Positions 6,399 through 27,310 of a DNA stretch of 36,159 bases are shown here, one piece after another. Source of the stretch: an uncultured beta proteobacterium. GTDB taxonomy: Bacteria > Pseudomonadota > Gammaproteobacteria > Burkholderiales > SG8-41. The translations under genes were made by a program, and so were the position numbers. Under the pieces are notes generated by a model. The model was not told the origin of the DNA. It ran no database searches and saw only the letters and a program-made list of their open reading frames with translations. Where the stretch lies: contig CAIWNB010000524.1 of assembly GCA_903913965.1 (NCBI GenBank), forward strand, positions 1 through 36,159, read 5' to 3'. Every line of letters begins with the position of its first letter. The stretch's first letter is position 1.

Positions 6399-7475
6399 AT
6401 GAGCAAACCACGTATCGTTGTCGGCATGTCAGGCGGCGTTGATTCATCGGTCGCCGCCTTGTTGCTAAAAGAACAAGGGTACGAGGTGATCGGTCTTTTC
6501 ATGAAGAACTGGGAAGACGATGATGACGACGAGTACTGCAGCTCGCGGCAGGATCTGATCGACGCGGTGTCGGTCGCCGACCGCATCGGCATCGACATCG
6601 AAGCGGTGAATTTCTCGAAGCAATACAAAGATCGCGTCTTCAGCGAATTCCTGCGCGAATACAAATCCGGCCGCACGCCTAACCCCGATGTGCTGTGCAA
6701 CGCAGAAATCAAGTTCCGCGCTTTTCTGGACCACGCCATGGCAATGGGCGCTGAACGCATCGCCACCGGTCATTATGCGCAGGTGCGCGAGGTCGATGGC
6801 CTCAGCCAGCTGTTGAAAGCCGAGGATGGCACCAAGGACCAGAGTTATTTTCTCTACCGGCTAAACCAGAGCCAGTTATCGAAAACCCTGTTCCCGCTCG
6901 GCGGTCTCTACAAGCGCGAAGTACGCGAAATGGCACGCAAAGCAGGACTCGCGAATTTCGCGAAAAAGGATTCCACCGGCATCTGCTTCATCGGCGAACG
7001 GCCCTTCCGCGAATTTCTCAATCGCTATATTCCGTCAGAGCCGGGGGAAATATGGGCGGTCGACGGCCGCATGGTGGGCCGCCACATGGGGCTGATGTTT
7101 TATACCATCGGTCAGCGTCAGGGCCTCGGTATCGGTGGCACACGCGAAGGCGACGGCGACGCCTGGTATGTCGCCGCCAAGGACATGCCCAATAACCGGC
7201 TGATCGTAGTGCAAGGACGCGAACACGACGCACTGTTATCCAACACGCTGTGCAGCGCCGATCTGAACTGGATCAGTGGCGAAGCGCCGCATTGTGAGTG
7301 GGTCTACAACGCGAAGACGCGCTACCGGCAAAAAGATGCGCCATGCGCGATCAAGAGCCTGACGGCCGGGCGCTGCGAAATCAGCTTTGCCGAATCACAA
7401 TGGGCAGTCACGCCGGGGCAATCGGTGGTGGTCTACGAAAGCCGCGTCTGTCTGGGCGGCGGCATTATCCAGTAG
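6399..7475 (+). CDS. mnmA: tRNA-specific 2-thiouridylase MnmA
   Basis: This 358-aa protein has normal MnmA length. It has the PP-loop SGGVDSS at residues 11-17, which binds ATP; catalytic Cys100 in [12 protein letters not shown]; and the second catalytic Cys196 in [13 protein letters not shown]. The C-terminal beta domain carries [10 protein letters not shown]. MnmA transfers sulfur to U34 of tRNA Lys, Glu and Gln to give s2U, using ATP and sulfur relayed from IscS. In many bacteria this same s2U is the substrate for selenation by SelU, but no selU is seen here. ATG 6399 starts 2 nt after the nudJ stop. Confidence 0.97.
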
Positions 7476-7526: not shown

Positions 7527-8138
7527 CTAGCTTTTCGGCGGCGCCGAATCAACGAACGACGGACGCTTGTTGAGCTTCTCGGCGAGTTTTTCGAGATTCT
7601 GATAATCCCTGCGCCACTGGGTATCCGGCAAACGCATGTCGAGATAACCCAATGCACAGCCGACGGCGATATCGGCAAGACTGTAATGGTCACCGCTGCA
7701 CCAGGTGCGATTGCCCAGCTCTTCGGACATGACTTTCAACGCGCGATCAATCTTGCCCTGTTGACGCACGATCCACTCGGCGCTTTGCTTGTCTGCCGCA
7801 CGACGTTTTTCAACCACCACCGCATTGGCGGCATCCGTACAACCGTCGGCCAGCGCCTCCCAGCGGCGCGTTTGGATGCGCGCGCGCGTGTCGTCGGGGA
7901 TCAACCTGCCAACCGGGCTTGCATGATCGAGATATTCGACAATCACGCGGGAGTCAAACAACGTCGTATTGTCGTCGAGGATCAGCACGGGTATCTTGCC
8001 CAGCGGATTGTATTCAGGAACGCGTGTTGCCGGATCGCCCGGATTTTCAATAATGAATTCGTATTCAATCTTTTTTTCCGCCAGTACGATACGCACCTTA
8101 CGGCTGTAAGGGCTGGCAAGCGCGGCAATCAACTTCAT
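7527..8138 (-). CDS. Glutathione S-transferase family protein
   Basis: This 203-aa protein has an N-terminal thioredoxin-fold GST domain: MKLIAALASPYSRKVRIVLAEK with the likely catalytic Ser/Tyr region at 9-12, then NPLGKIPVLILDD with the cis-Pro, and LFDSRVIVEYLD for glutathione binding. The all-helical C-terminal domain has SLADIAVGCALGYLD. It resembles the small YibF-like bacterial GSTs. Substrate unknown; cytoplasmic. It is divergent from the neighbouring Sec-containing glutaredoxin/DinB gene across a 162-nt spacer, so the two may share control and a glutathione-related role, which is inference. Confidence 0.9.
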   Translation of the reverse strand: MKLIAALASPYSRKVRIVLAEKKIEYEFIIENPGDPATRVPEYNPLGKIPVLILDDNTTLFDSRVIVEYLDHASPVGRLIPDDTRARIQTRRWEALADGCTDAANAVVVEKRRAADKQSAEWIVRQQGKIDRALKVMSEELGNRTWCSGDHYSLADIAVGCALGYLDMRLPDTQWRRDYQNLEKLAEKLNKRPSFVDSAPPKS

Positions 8139-8300
8139 ACTCTCGTCCGTTCTTCTTGTTTATACAACGTTTTACGAATGAGATTATATCATCGAGAATC
8201 CCTGTCCCTAGCGCAGGTAATGGGAACGCTTGCTTGACGCCGCGCGCCAGCGGGTAGTACGCTCCGCGCAGACTTTAATCTTCCTTTTGCGAAAGCTCCC
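8139..8300. promoter_or_regulatory. Divergent intergenic region between GST and the Sec-glutaredoxin/DinB gene
   Basis: This 162-nt spacer should hold both promoters. An AT-rich patch at 8160-8192 includes TATACA (8161-8166) and TTATAT (8184-8189) 17 nt apart on the plus strand, a weak sigma70-like pair. No clear operator was found. The ribosome site in front of ATG 8301 is weak (GAAAG about 6 nt upstream). Confidence 0.3.
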
Positions 8301-9074
8301 ATGAACCCAAGCAGCGAACAATTCATACTATTTACCCAACCGGGTTGAAGCAGCTGTCTTCGAGCGAAAGAGTTTCTTTCGAAAAAAGGCATCGACTTCA
8401 TCGCGATTGACGTTCTCAACGACGCCGGCGGACGCGAGAAATTACTTTCCTTCGGCGTGCGTAATGTCCCAGTGGTCGCGCGTGGGGAACAATTTGTGTT
8501 CGGGCAAAACCTCGAGGACGTGGCTGAATTCGTCGGTCTGCAGGGTACCGGCCACCAACCACTGCCGCCGGAACAGTTAATCGGCAAGTGGATCGACGTA
8601 CTGCGCACCGCTCAGGGTCTGATCCGCCAGCTACCCGACGCCGCACTGAATGAACGCGTGGTCGCCAACCGCGACCGCTCGATCCGTCTGATGTGCCATC
8701 ACGTCTTCCGCGTTGGCGAAGCCTTTCTCGAAAGCGTTGTAGACGGCGTCGAATATGCGGTTCAGCTCGCCAATGTGCCGCCGGCAGAAGGCACCTTCAC
8801 CACGGGTGACGAAATCGCACGTTATGGCGAGAGCGTCATCGCACGACTGCAGCAGTGGTGGGACAAGCTCGACGACAAGACCTGCCAGCAGAAGGTGAAA
8901 ACCTTTTTTGGTATGCAACCGATCTATATGCTCTATGAACGCTCGACCTGGCACTCGGCACAACACGCGCGCCAGCTCACGGCCGTGCTCGAAGGCCGCG
9001 GCATCGAACCGAAAGCGCGTTTGAAGCCGGAAACGCTGGCGGGTCTTCCTCTGCCCGAGCGACTTTGGGAATAA
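8301..9074 (+). CDS. Selenoprotein: glutaredoxin-like domain with U-S-S-C motif fused to a DinB-like domain
   Basis: Reading TGA 8346-8348 as selenocysteine gives one 257-aa protein with Sec16. Residues 1-80 form a glutaredoxin-like fold: strand FILFTQPG, redox motif Sec16-S-S-C19, helix CLRAKEFLSKKG, strand FIAIDVL, then the cis-Pro loop VRNVPVVARGEQ and FGQNLEDVAEFVG. About residues 95-250 look like a DinB/DUF664 four-helix bundle with likely metal-binding His (MCHHVFR; TWHSAQHARQL). Gene callers would start at GTG 8457 and lose the active site. The coding before the TGA is in frame, continuous and conserved in character, and Sec replaces the first Cys of a CxxC, the usual Sec site. A stem-loop at 8365-8381 fits a bacterial SECIS. 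Expected role: thiol/selenol redox chemistry, perhaps with glutathione. The substrate is unknown. It ends in a strong terminator. Confidence 0.88.
8346..8381 (+). promoter_or_regulatory. UGA (Sec codon) and bacterial SECIS element in the glutaredoxin/DinB gene
   Basis: TGA at 8346-8348 is followed by a perfect 6-bp stem (8365-8370 with 8376-8381) and a 5-nt loop AGTTT. The loop begins 23 nt after the TGA and has a G at its second position, matching the known bSECIS rule (loop about 16-37 nt downstream, G in the first two loop bases). SelB would bind here to bring Sec-tRNA to the ribosome. Confidence 0.82.
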
Positions 9075-9090
9075 AGATTGTTCGCTGGAT

Positions 9091-9121
9091 AAAAAAAGCC
9101 CCGCAATGCGGGGCTTTTTTT
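9091..9121. terminator. Bidirectional Rho-independent terminator
   Basis: A 7-bp perfect GC stem (9098-9104 with 9108-9114) with loop AAT has an A-run before it and a T-run after it, so it ends transcription both ways. It separates the convergent Sec-glutaredoxin/DinB gene and the minus-strand TctC gene. Confidence 0.93.
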
Positions 9122-9141
9122 ATCCATCTGGCGATGCCGCA

Positions 9142-10113
9142 CTACTCGATCTTGATCGCCGCCTCTTTCACCAGCTTCGCATATTTCGCAAGGTCACTCT
9201 TAATCACACGCGCAAACTCTTCCGGCGTATTGCCGACGAGTTCGTTGCCGCCCTGCGTCGCCAGCCGCTCAATCACATCCGGCATTTTCAGCGCCTTGGT
9301 CACCTCGCGATGCAAGCGATCGACGATGGGCTGAGGCGTGCCAGCGGGCAGCATTACCGCCTGCCACTGCGTGATCTCGAAACCCTTGAGACCCAGTTCG
9401 TCCATTGTCGGCACTTCAGGCAGGGAGCTCGAGCGCTTCAACGCGGTGACACCGATCGCTCTCAACTTGCCGGCCTTCAACTGCGGCACCGAGGTGATGG
9501 TGGTGTCAAACATATAACTAAGCTGGCCACCCAACAAATCAGCCAGCGCCAACGCACTGCCCTTGTAGGGCACGTGTATCGACTTGGTCTGCGTCATCAA
9601 ATTAAAGAGCTCGCCCGCAAGGTGATTGCCGCCACCGATACCAGTCGAGCCGTAAGTCAGTACACCCGGCTTTGATTTGACCCAGGCAATCATGTCCTTG
9701 ATGTTGGCTACCGGATTGGCCGCCGGCACCACCAGCACATACATATAGAGCGTACCCTGCGTCACCGGAATGAAATCCTTGACCGGATCGTAGGCGATCT
9801 TTTTGTAGAGCACCGGGTTAGTGGTGAGGGGCCCGCTCTGCCCCAGCAGGATGGTGTAGCCATCGGGCTGCGCACGCGCCGCCAGTTCGGTGCCGATACC
9901 ACCATTGGCACCGGCGCGATTGTCGACGATGACGGTCTGACCAAAGGCCTCGCCGAGCTTTTGTCCGATGGTGCGTGAAAAAATATCTGCCGCACCGCCG
10001 GCAACATAAGGACAGATGAAACGCACCGGCTTGGTCGGCCAGTTCTCCGCCGCCGCCACCGATCCCGCTGTAAATCCCATCGCCAGCATGCTCAAGGCAA
10101 GTCGCATTTTCAT
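9142..10113 (-). CDS. TctC/Bug-family periplasmic solute-binding protein
   Basis: This 323-aa protein has a signal peptide (MLAMGFTAGSVAAA) and then the Bug pattern: WPTKPVRFICPYVAGGAADIFSRTIGQKL, VDNRAGANGGIGTELAARAQPDGYTI (seen as separate blocks), and HVPYKGSALALADLLGGQ. Bug proteins are Venus-flytrap binders of di/tricarboxylates or related anions. No TctA/TctB is nearby. The start is ATG 10113, because GGAGG lies 5 nt upstream. It begins 26 nt after the UGSC selenoprotein stop and is the last gene of a TctC-UGSC-TctC operon, so its ligand may be a substrate of the selenoprotein (inference). Confidence 0.92.
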   Translation of the reverse strand: MKMRLALSMLAMGFTAGSVAAAENWPTKPVRFICPYVAGGAADIFSRTIGQKLGEAFGQTVIVDNRAGANGGIGTELAARAQPDGYTILLGQSGPLTTNPVLYKKIAYDPVKDFIPVTQGTLYMYVLVVPAANPVANIKDMIAWVKSKPGVLTYGSTGIGGGNHLAGELFNLMTQTKSIHVPYKGSALALADLLGGQLSYMFDTTITSVPQLKAGKLRAIGVTALKRSSSLPEVPTMDELGLKGFEITQWQAVMLPAGTPQPIVDRLHREVTKALKMPDVIERLATQGGNELVGNTPEEFARVIKSDLAKYAKLVKEAAIKIE

Positions 10114-10139: not shown

Positions 10140-11879
10140 TTATCCTTGGATCAGCGTATCCCAATTCTGTGGCAAGCGCACGGCCTTACTGACCGGCGGC
10201 CCCTGGATGTGGTTGCTGACATAGCCCTTGGACTGGTTACGTCCCCAATCGCCGGCTACCATGATGCCGATCCATTCAGGATGATGAAACACCGGGATCA
10301 AACGTTCGGGATCATCCGACTCGCCATAGACCGGTGGCAACAGGCCCTGCTTCACATAATTATTCACGCGAAAACCGGTCTGCCCGCAGTTCCAGGCATA
10401 ACGTTCGGCGAGTGACGCTTTCATCTTTACGTTCTCGTAGAGATAGCGGCGCAGGTCATCTTTGCTCCAGCCGTCTTCTGCGAACACTTTGGCAATACTC
10501 GGTCCCAACATGATGAGCGGATGCCAGTTGCTGTAGACCATGCCGATCGCCGTCCAATAGCCACAGGCGCGTTGCCCGATCACATCGGCGATCAGTTCGG
10601 CGTGTTCGACCGCCTTCTCACTACCGGTATAGGTCGGCGCACTGATCGCGACCACGCTTTGCACGGTGACAATGTTGTCGCCGGCCTTAAAGCCTCGATC
10701 GACACTGTAGGGCTGCCAACCGATCTCGGCGACCGCCTCTTCGTTTTCAGCGGCAGCCACCAGAAAACTCTGTCCGATGCTGCCCTTGTCGGCGCCCTCG
10801 GGTGCATGATGAAAGCCGGCGACGTTGCGTAGAAACATGCGCAGGAAACGCCCGACGCTGGTGTTTGCCTGTATGCCGGTGCGCATCACCCCCTGTCCGG
10901 AATTAAAGCCGAGTTGTTGCGCAATCGGGCCATTGATGACGATCAGCGATTCCCAGCCAGGGGTAGAACCGGCATCCTCGATTTTGTAAACAGGGTCAAT
11001 GATCGCTTCGATCACTGCCAACAGCACCGGCATATATTCAGGCCGGCAGCCCGCCATGACTCCGTTCACCGCCACATTCCACACCGTCGCCAGACGATTG
11101 GCCGGCGGGCACGGTCCGAGCACTTCGTCAGGCGCGCGATCGGTGAATTTTAAAAAGCGCTCGACGCGATCGAGTGTCGGCGGAATCACCGGCATGCCGT
11201 CGGCCCAGAAGCTTTTCTGGAAGTGTTCGTAGACTTCATCGAGCGTGCCGCGAAACACGATATCGCGCGGCGCCGGCTCAACCTCTGCTGCATCGTCAGA
11301 CAGTTTGCCGACCGGTTTCGACAAGCCGGCAATGATCTGCGGCAGCAATTCTTCCACGACCTTGCGCCGCAACTCGTCCTTGCTATCGGTCATCGGTACG
11401 CCGGGATACGCAGCGATGGGCATATCGGGCAAACCAAGGCCCTTGGCTACCACCGCCGCCTGCTTGAGGAATCCGCTGGAGATGATGGACACCGCCGGAT
11501 AGCCGGCGTTTTCAACCGCTGCACTCGCCCGCAACACGGCGGGCGTGCAGGCGCCTCAGGCGCCTATTGCAGAGATGACCGCATTACAACCATGCTGTTT
11601 GAGCAGCTTGGGCACATCGGCCACCAGTTCGCGCTGCTGCGGCCCGTGCACATTGCCGAATACATCGTAGGTAACAAAGCGGATGCCGGGAAAACGTTTG
11701 GTCAATTCTTCGCGCAGAATCGGAAAAATCTCTTCGCCGCGAAACAGGTAATCCCACAGTTCACCGACCACTTTGCCGGATAAATCATCGACCCGCGCAT
11801 TCGGCGCGCGGGTTTTGTAAGCCGAGGTGCCGAGTGGCCACACGACTTCGTATTTCGGTTCACTACTGATGCCGCTCAT
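10140..11879 (-). CDS. UGSC-family selenoprotein with U-G-A-C motif
   Basis: TGA 11558-11556 read as Sec joins two in-frame halves into a 579-aa protein with Sec108-G-A-Cys111. The N-terminal domain (residues 1-150) has YEVVWPLG, GKVVGELWDYLFRGEEIFP and RFPGIRFVTYDVFGNVHG, leading to AVISAIGA-Sec-GAC-TPAVLRASAAVE. The large C-terminal domain (about 165-579) has GMPVIPPTLDRVERFLKF, VNGVMAGCRPEYMPVLLAV, STPGWESLIVINGPIAQQLG and NTSVGRFLRMFLRNVAGF. The paralog at 25571 has the same length and the usual UGSC motif; here Ala replaces Ser. The start is ATG 11879, with GGGGAG 7 nt upstream and alignment to the paralog start; an upstream ATG at 11948 would not align. A 12-bp SECIS-like stem follows the TGA. 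The family was described from marine metagenomes and its reaction is not known to me. Confidence 0.95.
11519..11558 (-). promoter_or_regulatory. UGA (Sec codon) and bacterial SECIS element in UGSC gene 1
   Basis: After TGA 11558-11556, bases 11544-11539 pair with 11532-11527 (6 bp, GC-rich) around a 6-nt loop CGTGTT. A lower 6-bp stem (11550-11545 with 11524-11519) continues it past a 2-nt bulge. The loop starts 18 nt after the TGA and has G at its second position, as bSECIS rules require. The apical 20 nt (11546-11527) are identical to those in the second UGSC gene. Confidence 0.9.
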
Positions 11880-11906
11880 GGCAATGCTCCCCGGTAAAGA
11901 TGCCTC

Positions 11907-11926
11907 AGTTCGATATATATCGAACT
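11907..11926. promoter_or_regulatory. 20-bp perfect palindrome between tctC and UGSC gene 1
   Basis: AGTTCGATATATATCGAACT is a perfect 10+10 palindrome with no central spacer, ending 27 nt before the UGSC start codon and just upstream of its ribosome site. It could be an operator for a dimeric regulator (MarR, GntR or TetR size) or an RNA hairpin separating translation of the two genes. No T-run follows, so it is not a simple terminator. Confidence 0.6.
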
Positions 11927-11969
11927 CGAAATTCCCCGCGCCCCACATTCCCGGGGCGACGCAGTGATG

Positions 11970-14932: not shown

Positions 14933-15667
14933 TTAGACCTTCGCCGCCACCGTCAACCCGTGCGCCTGATGTTTCTCGATCAATTGCGCAACCAGTCCTG
15001 ATGCCTTGACGTCTTCGATATACGCCGCCAGAAACGCCGCCGCTGCAGGCCGTCCCTTGGGCACACCGGCCGCCTGTTGCACGGCAGTGAAGCGGCCTTC
15101 GAGAATGCGCGAACCGGGCAGGTTGGCGTGATCGGTGATGAGGCGTGGACGCAAACCGGCCAGCGCATCAATTTTGTCGGCAACGAATTTCTTGAACGCG
15201 TTATCAGCGCCGGCGGCGTGCAGCAGTTCCGCATTTTTCAGACTGCGCACCAGATAAAGATCATAGGCCGCTTTCTCGGGCACGATGATGCGCACGCCCT
15301 GGCGATCAACTTCTTCGACCGCTTGAATAGCAGAACCCGGCGGCACCAGATAGGTCGCTTCGATCTCCACATACGCGGGGCTGAAGTCGATGAGCTTGGC
15401 GCGCGCCGGCTCATCACCGAGGAAACCGACATCCCAAATATCGGTTGGCGCAGCTTCCGCGAGCTCTCCCGGCGAGGGGTAGCCGATGATTTCAGCTTCG
15501 GCACCGATGCGCCGCGCGAGTTCGCGACCAAGATCGACCGCAACGCCACCGGGTGCGCCGGTTTTCGGGTCTTTATGCGTCAACAAAAAATTCGAAAAAT
15601 TAATACCGACACGCAGTTTGCCTTTGGGCATCAGTTCGGCGCGGGCCTGGGCGGAGCATTCGATCAT
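14933..15667 (-). CDS. Solute-binding protein family 3 (amino-acid-type), no signal peptide
   Basis: This 244-aa protein has the SBP_bac_3 fold pattern: GKLRVGINFSNFLLTHKD, GVAVDLGRELARRIGAEAEI, DVGFLGDEPARAKLIDFSPA and EATYLVPPGSAI, typical of polar amino-acid binding proteins. The N-terminus (MIECSAQARAELMPKGK) is polar and not a signal peptide, and no export signal is found upstream in frame. It may therefore act in the cytoplasm or bind a ligand for another protein. ATG 15667 is chosen because AGGTGA lies 5 nt upstream; GTG 15676 falls within that ribosome site. It is divergent from selA. Confidence 0.83.
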   Translation of the reverse strand: MIECSAQARAELMPKGKLRVGINFSNFLLTHKDPKTGAPGGVAVDLGRELARRIGAEAEIIGYPSPGELAEAAPTDIWDVGFLGDEPARAKLIDFSPAYVEIEATYLVPPGSAIQAVEEVDRQGVRIIVPEKAAYDLYLVRSLKNAELLHAAGADNAFKKFVADKIDALAGLRPRLITDHANLPGSRILEGRFTAVQQAAGVPKGRPAAAAFLAAYIEDVKASGLVAQLIEKHQAHGLTVAAKV

Positions 15668-15849
15668 TGTGTTCACCTGGTGTGTCGATGCGATGGAGGG
15701 CTGAGAGTAGCCAAGATGCCGCCACGGCGCAATCTGCCCGCTGTGTAGCGGTGGGCACCGCGCACCCTGCCGCCGGGTTTCTGCATTGGAGGTACTAACG
15801 AATACCCATGCGCGCCACCAGTTTCAAAACCGCCCCTCCCGGATTGCGC

Positions 15850-15950: not shown

Positions 15951-17363
15951 ATGGTGAATCCGCCTGTTGGCGCGCGTCGCGCGCTCCCCTCGGTAGACCG
16001 CCTGCTACAACAGACGCGCGTCGTCGAACTCATTGCCCAATATGGACGACCGCTAGTCGTCGAAACCATCCGTGCAGTCATTGATGCGCAACGCGCGGCG
16101 ATGGCGCAAAACGCCGAACCGGCTGACGAAGCCACCCTGATCGAACGCTGCGCAGAAAACCTAGCCACCGCCATGCGTCCGTCGATGCGGCCGGTGTTCA
16201 ATCTCACCGGTACCGTGCTGCACACCAACCTCGGCCGCGCACTCATCGGCAAGATCGCCGCTGAAGCGGCCATGCAGGCGATGACGCGCGCGGTCAATCT
16301 CGAATTTGATATCGACGGTGGCGCACGCGGCGAACGCGACAGCCACGTCGAAGAGTGGTTGCGCCGTCTGACAGGCGCCGAGGCCGCGGTGGTCGTGAAC
16401 AACAATGCCGCCGCCGTTTATCTGGTGCTCAACACCTTTGCACAGAAAAAAGAAGTCATCGTCTCGCGCGGCGAACTCGTCGAGATCGGCGGCGCCTTTC
16501 GCATTCCAGACATCATGACGCGCTCGGGCTGCAAGCTGCGCGAAATCGGCACCACCAACCGCACGCACGCCAAAGACTTTGTCGAGGCCATCGACAAACG
16601 CACCGCGGCGCTGATGAAGGTGCACACCAGCAACTACGCCATACAGGGTTTCACCGCAGCCGTACCGGAACCCGAACTCGCCGCCATCGCACACGAACAT
16701 CAGCTGCCATTCTGGGTCGATCTCGGCAGCGGCACACTGGTTGATCTCGAACACTGGGGGCTGCCGCACGAACCCACCCCGCGCGACGCCATCGGTAACG
16801 GCGCCGATCTGGTCACCTTCAGCGGCGACAAACTATTGGGCGGCCCGCAATGCGGCCTCATCGTCGGCCGCAAGGATTTGATCGCCAAAATTCGCAAGAA
16901 CCCGATGAAGCGCGCCATGCGCATCGACAAGATCCGTATGGCCGCCCTCGAAGCGACACTGCGCCTCTACGCCGACCCTGAAAAACTGGTCAAAGAAGTG
17001 CCGACACTGCGTTTGCTGACGCGTCCGCAGCAAGACATCGAAGCGCAGGCCACACGCCTGCTGCCCGCGATCATCGCTGCAGTCGGTGACAGCGCAGACG
17101 CCATGGTCATCCACTGCGCGAGCCAAATCGGCAGCGGCGCACTGCCCGTTGATGCGCTGCCCAGCGCCGGCATTGCCGTGACGCCGCGCGGCAAAAACCG
17201 CAACAGCGCTGCAGAACGCCTGTCGAACGCCTTCCGTAAACTGCCGGTGCCGGTGGTCGGCCGCGTCAAAGACGGCGCATTCATACTCGATCTTCGATGT
17301 CTTGATGACGACGCCGGTTTCGTTCATCAACTTGATCAGCTTAAGCCGCAGAAATCGAAATGA
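15951..17363 (+). CDS. selA: L-seryl-tRNA(Sec) selenium transferase (selenocysteine synthase)
   Basis: This 470-aa protein has normal SelA length. N-terminal helices ALPSVDRLLQQTRVVELIAQYG bind tRNA-Sec. NLTGTVLHTNLGRALIG is the family signature. NNNAAAVYLVLNTFA and EIGTTNRTHAKDF (seen as REIGTTNRTH) line the active site. The PLP lysine is Lys294 in TFSGDKLLGGPQCGLIVG. SelA converts Ser-tRNA-Sec to Sec-tRNA-Sec using selenophosphate made by SelD, which is not in the window. It is the first gene of an apparent operon with a methyltransferase and selB. Its presence, with selB and selC, shows that UGA can be decoded as Sec in this organism. Confidence 0.97.
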   Translation: MVNPPVGARRALPSVDRLLQQTRVVELIAQYGRPLVVETIRAVIDAQRAAMAQNAEPADEATLIERCAENLATAMRPSMRPVFNLTGTVLHTNLGRALIGKIAAEAAMQAMTRAVNLEFDIDGGARGERDSHVEEWLRRLTGAEAAVVVNNNAAAVYLVLNTFAQKKEVIVSRGELVEIGGAFRIPDIMTRSGCKLREIGTTNRTHAKDFVEAIDKRTAALMKVHTSNYAIQGFTAAVPEPELAAIAHEHQLPFWVDLGSGTLVDLEHWGLPHEPTPRDAIGNGADLVTFSGDKLLGGPQCGLIVGRKDLIAKIRKNPMKRAMRIDKIRMAALEATLRLYADPEKLVKEVPTLRLLTRPQQDIEAQATRLLPAIIAAVGDSADAMVIHCASQIGSGALPVDALPSAGIAVTPRGKNRNSAAERLSNAFRKLPVPVVGRVKDGAFILDLRCLDDDAGFVHQLDQLKPQKSK

Positions 17364-17394: not shown

Positions 17395-18024
17395 ATGACG
17401 CCCAACCTATGCATCGAGCTTCACGCGGTTGACGAAATGGTCGGACTCGCGATGCGCTTCCGGCACATCGAGGGCTGGCTCGGCGACCATGAAGGCTATC
17501 TGCTGTTCCGGCTTGCGCGCGACGCCGAAGGTGCGGGAGCCATCGTCGAGATCGGTAGCTGGATGGGGCGCTCGACCGCGTGGCTCGCCGCTGGCAGCAT
17601 CGCCACTGGTCGCGAACGTGTGCGTGCAGTCGATACTTTTACTGGCAGCCAGGAGCACCAGAATCACGATTTGATCCGCCGCGAGGGCACCACCTATCAT
17701 CGCTTTACTGACAATCTGGAGGGCGTTGGTTTGTTCGAACATGTCGAACCTATCATCGCCGAATCGCGGAACGCCGCGCGTGACTGGAATGGTGGCGCGA
17801 TCCGGCTACTATTCATTGATGGCGATCATCAATACGAAGGCGTCAAAACAGACTTCGACCTCTGGGCGAAGCACGTGCCGACGGGCGGCTTTGTCGTATT
17901 TGACGACGTCGCTGAAAAACATCCCGGCGTGTGGAAATTCATCGGCGAGCTGCGTGGCGATTCAGCACACTGGCAGCATGTGATCTCGGTTGGAAAAACC
18001 GCAACCTTTCAGCGTATCGCCTGA
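17395..18024 (+). CDS. Class I SAM-dependent methyltransferase in the sel operon
   Basis: This 209-aa protein has a Rossmann methyltransferase core of Methyltransf_24 type: motif [20 protein letters not shown] (about residues 45-63), acidic strand [13 protein letters not shown], and motif IV-like [20 protein letters not shown] followed by GGFVVFDDV. Substrate unknown; similar proteins act on sugars, cephalosporin-type or glycan acceptors. It lies 31 nt after selA and 36 nt before selB on the same strand, so it is probably co-transcribed. A link to selenium, such as selenide or tRNA methylation, is only inference from position. ATG 17395 is preferred over the longer TTG/ATG starts, which would overlap selA. 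Confidence 0.85.
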
Positions 18025-18060: not shown

Positions 18061-20082
18061 ATGATCATCGCCACTGCCGGCCATATCGACCACGGCAAGA
18101 CCACCCTTGTGAAAGCGCTCACCGGCGTTGACACCGACCGTCTGCCCGAAGAAAAAGCCCGCGGCATTTCGATCGACATCGGTTTCGCCTACTGGAAAAC
18201 GCCTGACGCGCTGATCGGCTTTGTCGACGTTCCGGGCCACGAGCGTTTTATCCGCAACATGCTCGCCGGTGTTTCCGGTATCGATTACATCATGCTGATC
18301 GTCGCCGCCGATGACGGCGTGATGCCGCAGACCATCGAACACCTGAACATCGTCAACCTGCTCAACGTCTCGCATGGCGTGGCGGTGATCACCAAATGCG
18401 ACCGCGTCGCACCGGAGCGCGTGGCTGAAGTGGTGGCCGGCGTCAAAGCACTGCTCGCCGACACCAAACTCGCGGCGATCCCGGTGATGCCGGCCTCCGC
18501 CATCAGCGGTGAAGGTATCGAGACGCTGCGTGGCGAACTCTCAACCGCCGCCAAGGCGCATCAGCAGCGCGAACACGCCGGCCGCCATTTGCGTTACACC
18601 GTCGACCGCGTTTTCACCAAGGCGGGTAGCGGCACCGTTGTCACCGGCACGGTAGTGACGGGGGCGGTGGCCGTCGGCGACCATCTGATGCTCTCGCCGG
18701 GCGGCATCGAAGTGCGCGTACGCGGCATGCAAAAACAAAGCAGCGGCGCGCAACAGGCGGCAGCCGGTGAGCGTTGCGCCATCAACCTCTCTGGCGTCGA
18801 GCTCGCGCAAGTCAGCCGCGGCGACTGGCTGGTGGCCCCCGCCGTACACGCGCCGACCAAGCGCATCGACGCGCGCCTGCAGGTGCTCGCCAGCGAAGCG
18901 CAGGCACTCAAACACTGGACCCCGGTGCATATGCACTTGGGCACTGCGGATGTCACCGCACGGGTGTCGATCCGCCGCGGCGCGGTGATCGCGCCGGGTG
19001 AATCCGCGATGGTGCAACTCATCCTCGATCAGCCGTTGGCAGCCCTGCACGGCGACCGCTTCATCGTGCGCGACCAGTCGGCGACGCGCACGCTCGGCGG
19101 CGGCACCATCATCGACCCGTATGCGCCAGCCACCCGCCGCAACACCGCTGCGCGGGCCGCGCAACTCGCCGCCCTCGAACACGACGATCCGGCGCAGGCG
19201 CTCGCCGCCTTGCTGGCCTGCTCGCCGGCGGGCGTTGATCTCGCGCAATTCGAACGCACCTTCAATCTCAAGCCCGAGCGCGTCGACGCGCTGATCAGTG
19301 CACTCGACACCAACATCATCGGCAAGGAACAACGCGTCGCCCTGCCGCAGGCGGCAGTTGAAAAAATCAAACAGGCGGTGGTCGAGGCGCTGGTGAAATT
19401 CCACCGTGATTCTCCGCAGGCCACCGGCGCGGAAATCGACGCGCTGCACAAGACCCACGCGCCCGCCCTCAGTGCCGAAACCTTTAGCGCCCTGCTGCGC
19501 GTGCTCGCCGATGAAAAGAAACTCGAAGTGGCGGGTTCGCATGCACGCCTGCCGCAGCACATCGCCACCGACAATCCGGCCGACCAGAAAATGTGGCAGG
19601 CGGTCAGGCCGGTGATGGAGTCGGCCGGCTTCAACGTGCCGCCCTTGCGCGAACTGGCGCCGTTGACGAATCTGAAGGAACTCATCCTTAAGGATTTCCT
19701 CCATCGCAAGGCGAAGACCAACGAGGTGATCCGCGTCACGCCGGAGCGTTTTTATCCGCGCGCGACACTCGCACAACTCGCCGCCTGTGCAGTGGATGTG
19801 GCGCAGAACGCGCCGGGCAACCAGTTCACCGCCGCGCTGTATCGCGACCGCATCGGCGTCGGCCGCGGCCTGGCGATTGAAATTCTCGAATGCCTCGACC
19901 GCCTCGGCATCACGCAACGCATCGGTGATGGGCGCAAGATGCGCCGCGACTTCGTGCCGATACTGGGCGCGGCTGTCGCACCGCCGGCACCGCCGAAACA
20001 AGCAGCCGCCCCCGCACAAAACAAACCCGCCGCGCCTTCAGCGCAGCGCCGTCCCAACCCGCGTCCGATTAAACGTTACTGA
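18061..20082 (+). CDS. selB: Selenocysteine-specific translation elongation factor
   Basis: This 673-aa protein has normal SelB length with a Pro/Ala-rich tail. The GTPase domain has G1 GHIDHGKT (residues 7-14), G3 DVPGH (56-60) and G4 TKCD (111-114). SelB-type EF-Tu-like domains II-III follow ([20 protein letters not shown]). From about residue 390 four winged helices, ending near 640, would bind the mRNA SECIS hairpin. SelB takes the place of EF-Tu for Sec-tRNA-Sec and delivers it at UGA. It is the third gene after selA and the methyltransferase. Confidence 0.97.
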
Positions 20083-20139: not shown

Positions 20140-20193
20140 TTGCGGTTGAAGGCGCTGCGTTATCCATCCATCAAAACTCACCAAGAGGGAACC

Positions 20194-21096
20194 ATGTCTG
20201 CAACCAGTTTTGACCTTATCGTTATCGGCACCGGCATCGCCGGGCTGGCCGCCGCCAAAGTCGCCGCGCAAAAAGGTCTGCGCACCGCCACCGCGGAACA
20301 ACTCCTGTTCGGCGGCCTTGTCGTCAACATCAATGAACTCGACGGCGAGATCGAAGGCTCAGGCACCGATTACGCGTCCAACCTGATGATGGAAACCTCG
20401 GACCTGGGCGTTGAGAGCATCAACGAAACCGTCAGCGGCCTCAGCAAGAGCGGCGACACCATTACGGTGACCACCGACGGCGGCACGCACACAGCGCGCG
20501 CCGTCATCATCGCCTCGGGTGCGCGCCTCAAGCGCCTCGGCGTGCCGGGCGAAGCCGAGTTCGAACATCGTGGCGTGTCGCAATGCGCCGACTGTGACGG
20601 CCCCATGTATCAGGGCGAGGACGTGGTGGTGGTCGGCGGCGGCGACTCGGCACTACAGGAAGCGCTGGTGCTGGCGCATTTCTGCAAACGCGTGCACCTC
20701 GTGCATCGCGGCGCGAAGTTCAGCGCACGCCAGACCTATATTGACGCCGTGGCCGCGCAACCAGCGATCGAAACCCACTGGAACACCGTGGTCGAAGCGA
20801 TCGAGGGTGACGACATGGTGCGCAAGGTCCGCATCAACAGCGGCGGCACCAGTAGCGAACTGGCGACGAGCGGCTTCTTTGCTTACGTTGGGCTGGCGCC
20901 GAATGCGGAATTTGTGCCGGCTGACATCGCGCGCGATAAGCGCGGCGGCCTGACCACCAACGACACCTTGCAAACCTCGCTCACCGGTGTCTTTGCCGCT
21001 GGTGTGGTGCGCGCCGGTTGCGGCGGCAATCTGATCGACGCGAAAAACGATGGTGAAAAAGCCGGCGCGGCGGCAGCAAAGTTTCTCGGCAAGTAG
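20194..21096 (+). CDS. Thioredoxin-reductase-like FAD/NAD(P)H flavoprotein
   Basis: This 300-aa pyridine nucleotide-disulfide oxidoreductase has an FAD-binding GxGxxG (IVIGTGIAGLAAAKVAA, G12-G17), a redox pair Cys131-A-D-Cys134 in SQCADCDGPMY, an NAD(P)H site VVVVGGGDSALQEALVLA (about 143-160), and the C-terminal FAD motif TGVFAAGVV. The layout fits low-Mr thioredoxin reductase (CxxC between the two FAD halves). The usual CATC is CADC here, so it may serve another thiol or selenol partner. ATG 20194 has AGAGGG upstream; a longer start at 20140 is unlikely. It lies between selB and selC. It is a candidate reductant for the Sec proteins in this window (inference from position). Confidence 0.9.
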   Translation: MSATSFDLIVIGTGIAGLAAAKVAAQKGLRTATAEQLLFGGLVVNINELDGEIEGSGTDYASNLMMETSDLGVESINETVSGLSKSGDTITVTTDGGTHTARAVIIASGARLKRLGVPGEAEFEHRGVSQCADCDGPMYQGEDVVVVGGGDSALQEALVLAHFCKRVHLVHRGAKFSARQTYIDAVAAQPAIETHWNTVVEAIEGDDMVRKVRINSGGTSSELATSGFFAYVGLAPNAEFVPADIARDKRGGLTTNDTLQTSLTGVFAAGVVRAGCGGNLIDAKNDGEKAGAAAAKFLGK

Positions 21097-21163: not shown

Positions 21164-21258
21164 GGAAGGGAATCGCTCCCGGTGGGGCGGCCAGACTTCA
21201 AACCTGGTAGGGGCTGTTTACAGTCCTGCGTGGGTTCGACTCCCACTCTCTTCCGCCA
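21164..21258 (+). tRNA. selC: tRNA-Sec, anticodon UCA
   Basis: This 95-nt tRNA ends in an encoded CCA. The acceptor stem is 8 bp (GGAAGGGA with TCTCTTCC, one G-U), the D stem is 6 bp, the anticodon loop is CTTCAAA with UCA, the long variable arm is an 8-bp stem-loop, and the T arm is GTGGG-TTCGACT-CCCAC. These are the marks of bacterial selC. The loop-closing pair of the anticodon stem is A-C instead of A-U. Confidence 0.97.
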
Positions 21259-25570: not shown

Positions 25571-27310
25571 ATGAGCAATACGCCTAACCATGAACCGCGT
25601 TACGACGTGCTATGGCCGCTGTCACGCAAAGCGGTGAAAAAATCAGCCGCCGCCAAACGCGTACCCGACCTCAACGGCAAAGTGATTTGCGAACTGTGGG
25701 ATGTGATTTTTCGTGGCGAAACCATTTATCCGCTGGTGCGCGAATACATCCAGAAACGTTTTCCCGGTGTCAAATTCGTGCCCTACAGCGAGTTCGGTAA
25801 TTTCCACGGCGCGCGCGAACATGAAGTCACCGCCACCATCCCCGACAAAATCAGATTGCACAAAGCCGACGCCGCCATTGTCGGCATCGGTGCCTGAGGG
25901 AGCTGTACGCCCGCCGTGTTGCGGGCCGCAGCAGTCGTCGAACGCATGGGCGTGCCGACCGCGTCCATCATAGGGTCAGGCTTTCTCAAGCAGGCTGAAG
26001 TCATCGTCAAAGGACTGGGCGTACCGCTCGGCATCGGCGTCTATCCCGGCGCCCCCATGCTGGACAGCGACGCCGAATTAAAACGCAAGGTCGAGGAAGT
26101 GCTCGCCCCGGGCCTGCTCAAGGCACTGATTGGCGACGAGCCCGTCGAAGCGGATTCATCCATCGAACCCGAGCCGGGCACGGTGGTGTTCAGCGGCGAT
26201 TACGACGCTGTGCAGGAACACTTCTACAAAAATCTGTGGACCGACGGCCTGCCGGTGACGCCACCGACCCGCGAGCGCGTCGATGCCTTCCTCAAATTCA
26301 CCGACCGCAAACCGGAAGACGTACTGCGGGTGATTCCGCAGGAAGGCCGCGAAGCCTCCATCCTCAGCATCGCCGTCAACGGCGTAATGGCGGGTTGCCG
26401 TCCGGAATACATGCCGGTACTGATTGCAATCGTCGATGCGCTGTGCGATCCACGCTATCGCGTCGAAGATTCGGGCTCGACGCCAGGCTGGGAACCGGTA
26501 GTTATCGTCAACGGACCCATCGTCAAGGAACTCGATTTCAACTACGGTCAGGGTGTGATGCGCGTCGGCCGCCAGGCCAACACCAGCATCGGCCGCTTCG
26601 TGCGTATGTATCTGCGCAACATCTGCGGCTTTCGCATTCCGCCCGGCGCGGGCGACAAGGGCAGCATTGGCCAAACCTTTCTTGTCGCCATGGCCGAGGA
26701 TGAAGACAGCGCCACGGCGATCGGCTGGCCGACCTATGGCGAGGACCGCGGTTTCAAGAAGGGTGAAAACGTCGTCACCGTGCACAGCGTGGTGGCCATC
26801 ACCTCGCCAATGTACAGCGGCGGTGACGATGCAAAGACGCATGTGCAACAGTGGACCGACATCATTGGCGGCAGCTTCACCTACTGGGCGCATACCGGTT
26901 TCAAAACCGGCTTGTGGAGTCCGCTCATCATCGCCGGCCCCAGCATCGCCGGCGTGATCGCCAAAGAATGGACGAAGGACCAGGTCCGGCAATACCTGTA
27001 CGACAACATGAAAGTGACCGCCGCCAAAGCCACGCATTACGCGCAAATGACCAGCACGCCGACCTTCAATTTCGAAAGCCTCGTCGAGCAAGGCATCCTG
27101 CCGCCGTCGTATACGGAATCAAAAGACCCGCAGCGTCTCGTCAATGTACTGATCAAACCGGAGATGGTGGAAATTCTGATCGCCGGCGATCCGGGCCGCA
27201 ATCAATCGCGCGCCTACATGAGTAATCACGTGCAGGGGCCGCCGACCAGTCGCAAGGTCGAGCTGCCGAAGAACTGGTCGCAATTAATCGATCGCAGCGG
27301 CACATCATAG
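25571..27310 (+). CDS. UGSC-family selenoprotein with U-G-S-C motif
   Basis: TGA 25895-25897 read as Sec gives a 579-aa protein with Sec109-G-S-Cys112, the motif that names the family. The N-terminal domain has YDVLWPLS, GKVICELWDVIFRGETIYP and RFPGVKFVPYSEFGNFHG, and leads to AAIVGIGA-Sec-GSC-TPAVLRAAAVVE. The C-terminal domain has GLPVTPPTRERVDAFLKF, VNGVMAGCRPEYMPVLIAI, STPGWEPVVIVNGPIVKELD and NTSIGRFVRMYLRNICGF. It aligns throughout with the copy at 11879-10140. GGGAGAG lies 4 nt before the ATG. A SECIS-like hairpin starts 11 nt after the TGA. The Sec-Cys pair suggests a redox or selenolate-based reaction. The substrate is not known; the TctC genes before it suggest a carboxylate-like compound (inference). 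Confidence 0.97.
25895..25932 (+). promoter_or_regulatory. UGA (Sec codon) and bacterial SECIS element in UGSC gene 2
   Basis: After TGA 25895-25897, a 6-bp stem (25909-25914 with 25921-25926) holds loop CGTGTT, starting 18 nt from the TGA with G at its second base. A lower 4-bp stem (25902-25905 with 25929-25932) extends it. The 20 nt at 25907-25926 are identical to UGSC gene 1 although the surrounding codons differ. Confidence 0.92.

Follow-up and report, generated by a model that had tools for sequence, protein, structure and literature searches.

The DNA considered here, a stretch of 36,159 nucleotides from an uncultured betaproteobacterium (hereafter, the window), raises the question of whether an ORF listed by default as a DinB-like protein is part of a longer gene for a selenoprotein. 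Without recoding, the listed ORF runs from GTG 8457 to 9074, encodes 205 aa and misses the active site, as the first-pass annotation had said of ordinary gene calling. With TGA translated as selenocysteine (Sec), positions 8301–9074 of the forward strand give 257 residues, from ATG 8301 to a TAA stop, with a single TGA (8346–8348, residue 16) and the active-site motif TQPG-U-SSC. This read-through, proposed in the same annotation, joins a glutaredoxin (Grx) start in frame to the DinB-like part. PF00462 matched residues 9–66 (8325–8498; E = 3.7e-12; 46.7 bits against the Pfam gathering cut-off of 22.9), which include the UxxC site GUSSC, and PF12867 (DinB_2) matched residues 103–226 (8607–8978; E = 1.3e-7; 32.5 bits against 24.8). 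All 16 rows of a second alignment (A2) also matched PF12867 at E 0.1. Pfam at E 0.001 returned these two domains alone for the window protein, with GST_N and GST_C not among them; the top Foldseek rows were GST chains, yet the GST rows have an rmsd of at least 8.8 Å.

The alternative is that this UGA is a true stop and that the real protein is DinB-only from GTG 8457, which is the ORF that the default listing gives. Homologues were collected by a scan of the genome contigs, which yielded 60 loci; three of these (L088–L090) were dropped as contig-end matches short of the Sec codon, and the remaining 57 span residues 10–256 or more. At the Sec column these near-complete homologues have TGA (n = 49) or Cys (n = 8) and nothing else. 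Cys or Sec at position 16 is what the first-pass annotation had proposed to look for in homologues; as for the contrary outcome that it named, homologues starting only at the DinB domain and with neither residue, we found the Grx half with Sec or Cys in 57 of the 60 loci. Both the composition of the column and the presence of the Grx half in 57/57 homologues reaching that region argue against a true stop. Reading of UGA as Trp was also ruled out, as the column is TGA or Cys only. Invariant columns of the 49-row alignment (A1) include G15, the Sec/Cys column, C19, K23, E24, P57, and H134.

Whole genomes gave the same picture. A Grx-DinB match at 1e-15 was detected in 57 of 100 genomes (that of the window and 99 relatives), and the listed matches covering residue 16 have exactly one internal TGA each, the exception being G075 with Cys; the position of the TGA in these matches was confirmed only for translated loci. 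The Sec form is also present in G589, a genome in one contig, so assembly error is an unlikely source of the TGA, a further point against the stop reading. The G589 protein scored 17.4 bits against PF12867, under the cut-off (24.8). In a wider sample, matches at 1e-20 were found in 2 of 369 genomes of the class (the window's own and G219) and 2 of 398 of the phylum (its own and G589), and the family is therefore patchy. Three distant Sec forms (L092–L094; 25–27% identity) have the sites UFSC, UHAC, and UTAC.

Directly 3′ of the UGA lies a hairpin (8365–8381, forward strand) in which C8365–G8370 (CGAAAG) is paired with C8376–G8381 (CTTTCG) over 6 bp, with the loop AGTTT at 8371–8375. The first-pass annotation had described a SECIS-like stem 23 nt downstream; its 6 bp and loop AGTTT were borne out, and the distance, taken from UGA to loop, is 22 nt, within one of that figure. 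According to the bacterial SECIS (bSECIS) model given in PMC13188914, the hairpin has a G within the first two bases of its loop and lies 16–37 nt from the UGA, and the hairpin of the window agrees with this in loop and distance. Folding of the single sequence was unremarkable in both tests, the first giving −12.4 kcal/mol and z = −0.68 (47 of 200 shuffles equally good) and the second z = −1.48 (16 of 200), which is what the stop reading has in its favor. That the hairpin is more than chance is thus argued from comparison across genes.

An exact copy of the hairpin core, CGAAAGAGTTTCTTTCG, is present in 57 of the 60 Sec genes compared (that of the window, those of 49 public loci, and a further 10 from other genomes; 58 distinct sequences). 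The other three are one base off each, and none of 15 Cys genes has the exact core. Because the stem barely varies, the argument was built on silent sites. The Cys genes retain Lys-Glu-Phe/Tyr-Leu/Ile, encoded mostly by AAG, GAG, TTC, and CTG or CTC. Outside the hairpin stretch, the 49 public Sec genes use CTT for 105 of their 1278 Leu codons and TTT for 104 of their 511 Phe codons, and 78% of third positions are G or C. The core is therefore conserved at the RNA level. The Sec gene of G589, which is outside the 60, goes against this uniformity, having a different sequence and no exact core. The distant forms L092–L094 keep the core, with one base altered in two of the three. Cys genes on a Rhizobium plasmid (L112) and a Caballeronia plasmid (L113) have AAA GAG TTT, and L113 also CTT, resembling the SECIS core; these codons are perhaps a remnant inherited from an ancestor with Sec.

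Conservation of the SECIS at silent sites, together with the Sec/Cys column, led us to reject the DinB-only stop-codon reading, which is close to refuted and which we regard as exceedingly improbable. As far as sequences can tell, comparison among genes shows the hairpin to be a SECIS and UGA 8346–8348 to be decoded as Sec, and 8301–9074 almost certainly encodes a selenoprotein. The nearly invariant 17-nt core, missing from Cys sisters with near-identical residues, offers a clean natural test for the reading of the hairpin by SelB.

Cys forms also occur on plasmids. Thirteen plasmid records contain a Grx-DinB protein with both domains and 33–45% identity to the window protein, annotated as "glutaredoxin domain-containing protein" or "DinB family protein"; the five that were read (L109–L113) have Cys at the Sec place and no SECIS core. 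Of the 78 rows placed in a midpoint-rooted tree, 63 are Sec and 15 Cys; long deep branches in it make deep joins unsure. In this tree the Cys forms fall among Sec forms, with four Sec/Cys changes, at least two of them forced by well-supported branches. Sec has likely been lost more than once, and where the host has no Sec the Cys homologues presumably serve the same function.

The surroundings of the gene were profiled in the window and in the main clade of 47 Sec loci (L031–L077), many of which end too early for neighbors to be judged. Upstream lies mnmA (tRNA 2-thiouridylase; 6402–7475, forward strand), a conserved neighbor found in 40 of the 47, and between the two is a divergent glutathione S-transferase gene (7527–8138, reverse strand; 30 of 47). 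The genes selA (15951–17363; PF03841, E = 1.5e-163), selB (18061–20082, by domain search), a thioredoxin-reductase-like (TrxR-like) flavoprotein (20185–21096), and selC (21164–21254; RF01852, 75.5 bits; 21164–21258 by ARAGORN), all on the forward strand, sit 7–12 kb downstream of the Grx-DinB gene, with a Methyltransf_24 gene (17398–18024, forward strand; domain search) between selA and selB. The window thus holds selA, selB, and selC, the three that the first-pass annotation had credited to the organism. The selD gene, which contains a single in-frame TGA of its own, lies outside the window in another part of the host genome, and the Sec set of the host is complete. The TrxR-like protein, a candidate reductase, has a Pyr_redox_2 domain and a CADC site; it matched TIGR01292 (TRX_reduct) at E = 2.8e-70, yet with 236.5 bits against a cut-off of 343.45.

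In the main clade, 33 of the 47 loci have selA downstream in the same orientation, at gaps of 156–5053 nt (11 under 400 nt), along with selB in 26, and the TrxR-like gene accompanies the Sec gene in 20. Exceptions are four loci with 6 kb downstream and no selA, and three with 3 kb upstream and no mnmA. G064, from another family, has kept the order mnmA, Grx-DinB, selA, selB, TrxR-like, and selC, at 50% identity. ARAGORN detected selC in 9 of the 66 loci scanned. In a further group (L078–L087; eight Cys, two Sec) neither mnmA nor selA was found, with just four of the ten holding 3 kb upstream and six holding 6 kb downstream.

Immediately behind the Grx-DinB gene is a strong symmetrical hairpin with A- and T-runs (9086–9126; −31 kcal/mol, z = −8.9), likely a two-way terminator; it was not listed by a pattern scan, and a promoter scan of 8100–9300 found none. 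Opposite-strand genes stand between the Grx-DinB gene and selA. The terminator-like hairpin and these genes weaken the case for a transcript or operon shared with selA or the TrxR-like gene in the window.

Neighbors of this kind invite the explanation that the Sec-redoxin serves the selenium supply, reducing selenite or selenodiglutathione with the TrxR-like protein and handing selenide to SelD, so that Sec production would be coupled to a selenoprotein. Besides the frequent presence of selA, selB, the TrxR-like gene, and selC nearby, the glutathione (GSH) and Trx systems are named as possible selenium donors to SelD in the sections of PMC13188914 consulted. However, Cys forms are kept in both Cys-form genomes that were tested (G075 and G219), neither of which has selA, and also occur on plasmids in differing neighborhoods, and 10 of the 13 selA-positive genomes outside the family of the window have no Grx-DinB protein. 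We therefore consider both the supply role and the coupling improbable.

Among the opposite-strand genes that separate Grx-DinB from selA is one for a UGSC-family selenoprotein (10140–11948, reverse strand; PF24696, E = 6e-29), with an in-frame TGA at residue 131 in the motif UGAC. A second such gene (25571–27310, forward strand; PF24696, E = 1.1e-21) has its TGA at residue 109 in the motif UGSC. The default ORF listing splits both. The genome of the window has 19 UGSC hits, each with one TGA, and up to 34 were found in its relatives (G001–G059), where at most 34 candidates were scored. A table row in PMC5029168 gives 26 and 33 for UGSC, taken here as organisms and genes, and the same paper reports the record as of 2016, a single bacterium with at least 39 genes for selenoproteins. 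The betaproteobacterial family of the window looks unusually rich in selenoproteins.

Across the 100 genomes, selA was detected in 70, UGSC in 63 (NF041046, 1e-7), and Grx-DinB in 57. Of the 40 genomes outside the family of the window, three (G061, G064, and G071) have the Sec form at E 1e-15; these three and no others have UGSC at E 1e-7, and a further ten selA-positive genomes have neither. The chance of such a coincidence among 13 selA-positive genomes is 1 in 286, with the lineages being few. Given this shared occurrence in 3 of 40 genomes, UGSC selenoproteins are candidate partners of the Sec form. G589 combines the Sec form with selA and two UGSC genes, and G219 and G075, with Cys forms, have neither selA nor UGSC. 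Inside the family, UGSC was found in 60/60 genomes, seven of which lack a Grx-DinB match (assemblies 69–92% complete). Three (G012, G026, and G050) have no selA hit despite UGSC, among them G012 (91% complete) with a fragment of the Sec form. Assembly gaps likely explain the family genomes that miss Grx-DinB or selA.

This distribution suggests that the protein could be the dedicated reductant of the UGSC selenoproteins of its hosts, with electrons from NADPH reaching the UGSC enzymes by way of the TrxR-like protein and then the Sec-redoxin, a role compatible with our preferred explanation (set out below) and narrower than it. Besides the out-of-family coincidence and the contrast of G589 with G219 and G075, 7 of the 47 loci have a UGSC homologue close to the Sec gene, two of these homologues being just 29% identical to those of the window, and the window itself has two. 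Kim is said to have described in 2011 a Sec-Grx that serves a Sec-MsrA. The same pattern could, however, reflect a general taste for Sec in few independent lineages; Cys forms occur where UGSC was not found, and the seven family genomes with UGSC and no Grx-DinB match count against it, subject to their completeness of 69–92%. To our knowledge, no reaction is known for UGSC. We hold this role as a possibility, though a doubtful one. In its broader form, equally tentative if not slightly more so, a TrxR-like protein would charge a Sec-redoxin/thiol-transferase hub that serves a greatly expanded UGSC set in catabolic gene clusters and whose gene travels with selA, selB, and selC; such a selenium redox circuit would exist in a single betaproteobacterial lineage that has been little studied, and in a few relatives scattered elsewhere.

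What the protein itself may do was approached through its predicted structure. The AlphaFold2 model has a mean pLDDT of 94.9 and a pTM of 0.90. Its N half resembles BC3987 (3zit, Z = 13.4), cGrx1 (7c10, Z = 12.1), and NrdH (Z about 11). Its C half resembles DinB/YfiT structures (6iz2, Z = 15.5, rmsd 2.5, 144 aligned), zinc mycothiol S-transferase (8f5v, Z = 12.9), and maleylpyruvate isomerase (2nsf, Z = 12.8). Helical bundles can reach high scores by chance, so the Pfam match and the His pattern weigh more than these fold scores. The DinB fold match rests on the predicted model; when a profile built from the DinB half was searched against the PDB, no DinB structure came up, the only matches being DHT03 protein A and ribosome hibernation factors, which at E above 0.01 are uninformative. 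The sequence has the pattern H...HxxxH, formed by H134 (8700–8702), invariant in the 49-row alignment, and by H218 and H222 of the HSAQH motif (8952–8966), present in at least 90% of the 49 rows. By analogy with the triad of BstA (PMC5815605, consulted in part), these would be the first, second, and third metal ligands. The distant forms L092–L094 retain Sec and Cys and have lost HxxxH. The redox part can therefore persist where the metal site is gone, and it is the more constant function.

From sequence and model, the protein is best described as a predicted NrdH/UXX-star-like glutaredoxin with UxxC fused to a DinB/STL four-helix domain. We infer, from the DinB fold and His triad as in BstA and from the presence in the host of gshB, by which it is judged to make glutathione, that its most likely activity would be that of a Sec-redoxin, supplied by TrxR or GSH, working together with a metal-dependent thiol transferase. 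Sec16 would attack a disulfide, mixed disulfide, or similar oxidized sulfur or selenium group, and Cys19 would resolve the intermediate as a selenenylsulfide, the Sec site then being recharged by the TrxR-like flavoprotein encoded beside selB, or by GSH. The DinB half may bind a divalent metal through H134, H218, and H222 and activate a thiol, in this host GSH, that is either transferred to the substrate or removed from it. Taken as a whole, we regard this mechanism as evenly poised between right and wrong. The "thiol-linked transferase or isomerase" suggested in the first-pass annotation is consistent with the predicted DinB fold matches and His triad.

In another explanation, the protein would be a thiol-dependent isomerase or lyase of a catabolic pathway with a built-in redoxin, like mycothiol-dependent maleylpyruvate isomerase, which the modeled DinB half resembles (the Z of 12.8 above). 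One plasmid homologue lies amid genes for a TTT binding protein, a ring-hydroxylating dioxygenase, and acyl-CoA genes, another is flanked by isochorismatase and amidase genes, and an SBP_bac_3 gene adjoins Grx-DinB in four Cys-form loci (upstream and close in L078, L079, L083, and L084; the window homologue is at 14933–15676, reverse strand). But the neighbors vary among loci, and the Sec main clade adjoins mnmA and the sel genes, not one pathway. A catabolic enzyme of this type thus seems unlikely to us, if a little less so than a role in selenium supply.

The redoxin coupled to a thiol transferase, our preferred reading, can be compared with known systems. Sec-glutaredoxins and both domains were known already, and the Sec fusion appears to be new: no Grx-DinB entry is present in the 119-family selenoprotein table of a 2026 review (PMC13188914) or among the matches listed in literature searches. 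The first-pass annotation had likewise known of no named selenoprotein family with this pair, and on these sources that holds. What we describe looks like a new selenoprotein family built from two known domains, whose genes the default ORF listing shortens to a DinB protein. It connects, in bacteria that make glutathione, a selenium redoxin with the DinB thiol-transferase superfamily, and Grx-DinB becomes a candidate partner for the UGSC selenoproteins.

The best profile match in the PDB is the Sec glutaredoxin cGrx1 (7c10; E = 9.6e-18), which we take to be the Clostridium oremlandii selenoprotein Grx; it has the same Grx fold, and its chain of 84 residues, unlike the window protein, has no DinB half. 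A Grx-like domain is also shared with UXX-star (NF041212, NF041211, NF047338), and NF041212 matches 49 of the 49 rows of A1 at E 1e-5. Membership in that named family was rejected (39.7 bits for the window protein against a cut-off of 66), no NCBIfam model listed for the window protein reached its cut-off, and unlike UXX-star the window protein has UxxC with an invariant C19, followed by DinB. Fusion of a Grx-like domain with another domain is known from HUGP/GUXX-star (NF045501), according to the part of PMC13188914 consulted. With DinB/STL proteins (BstA/YfiT, mycothiol S-transferase, maleylpyruvate isomerase) the window protein shares the predicted four-helix fold and the H...HxxxH triad, the difference being that here DinB comes after a Sec-redoxin. 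In the portion of PMC5815605 available, H67, H160, and H164 of BstA are the sole fully conserved residues across eight B. subtilis enzymes, metal-dependent S-transferases whose activity is abolished by EDTA in 8/8, and the HxxxH spacing equals that of H218 and H222 after H134 in the window protein. Two-domain DinB/STL members are mentioned there, and the word "glutaredoxin" is absent from its main text. The mycothiol S-transferase of M. tuberculosis has two His and one Asp instead (PMC10950700, in the part consulted). The plasmid Cys forms have both domains, and L109–L113 differ from the window protein in having Cys in place of Sec and no SECIS core.
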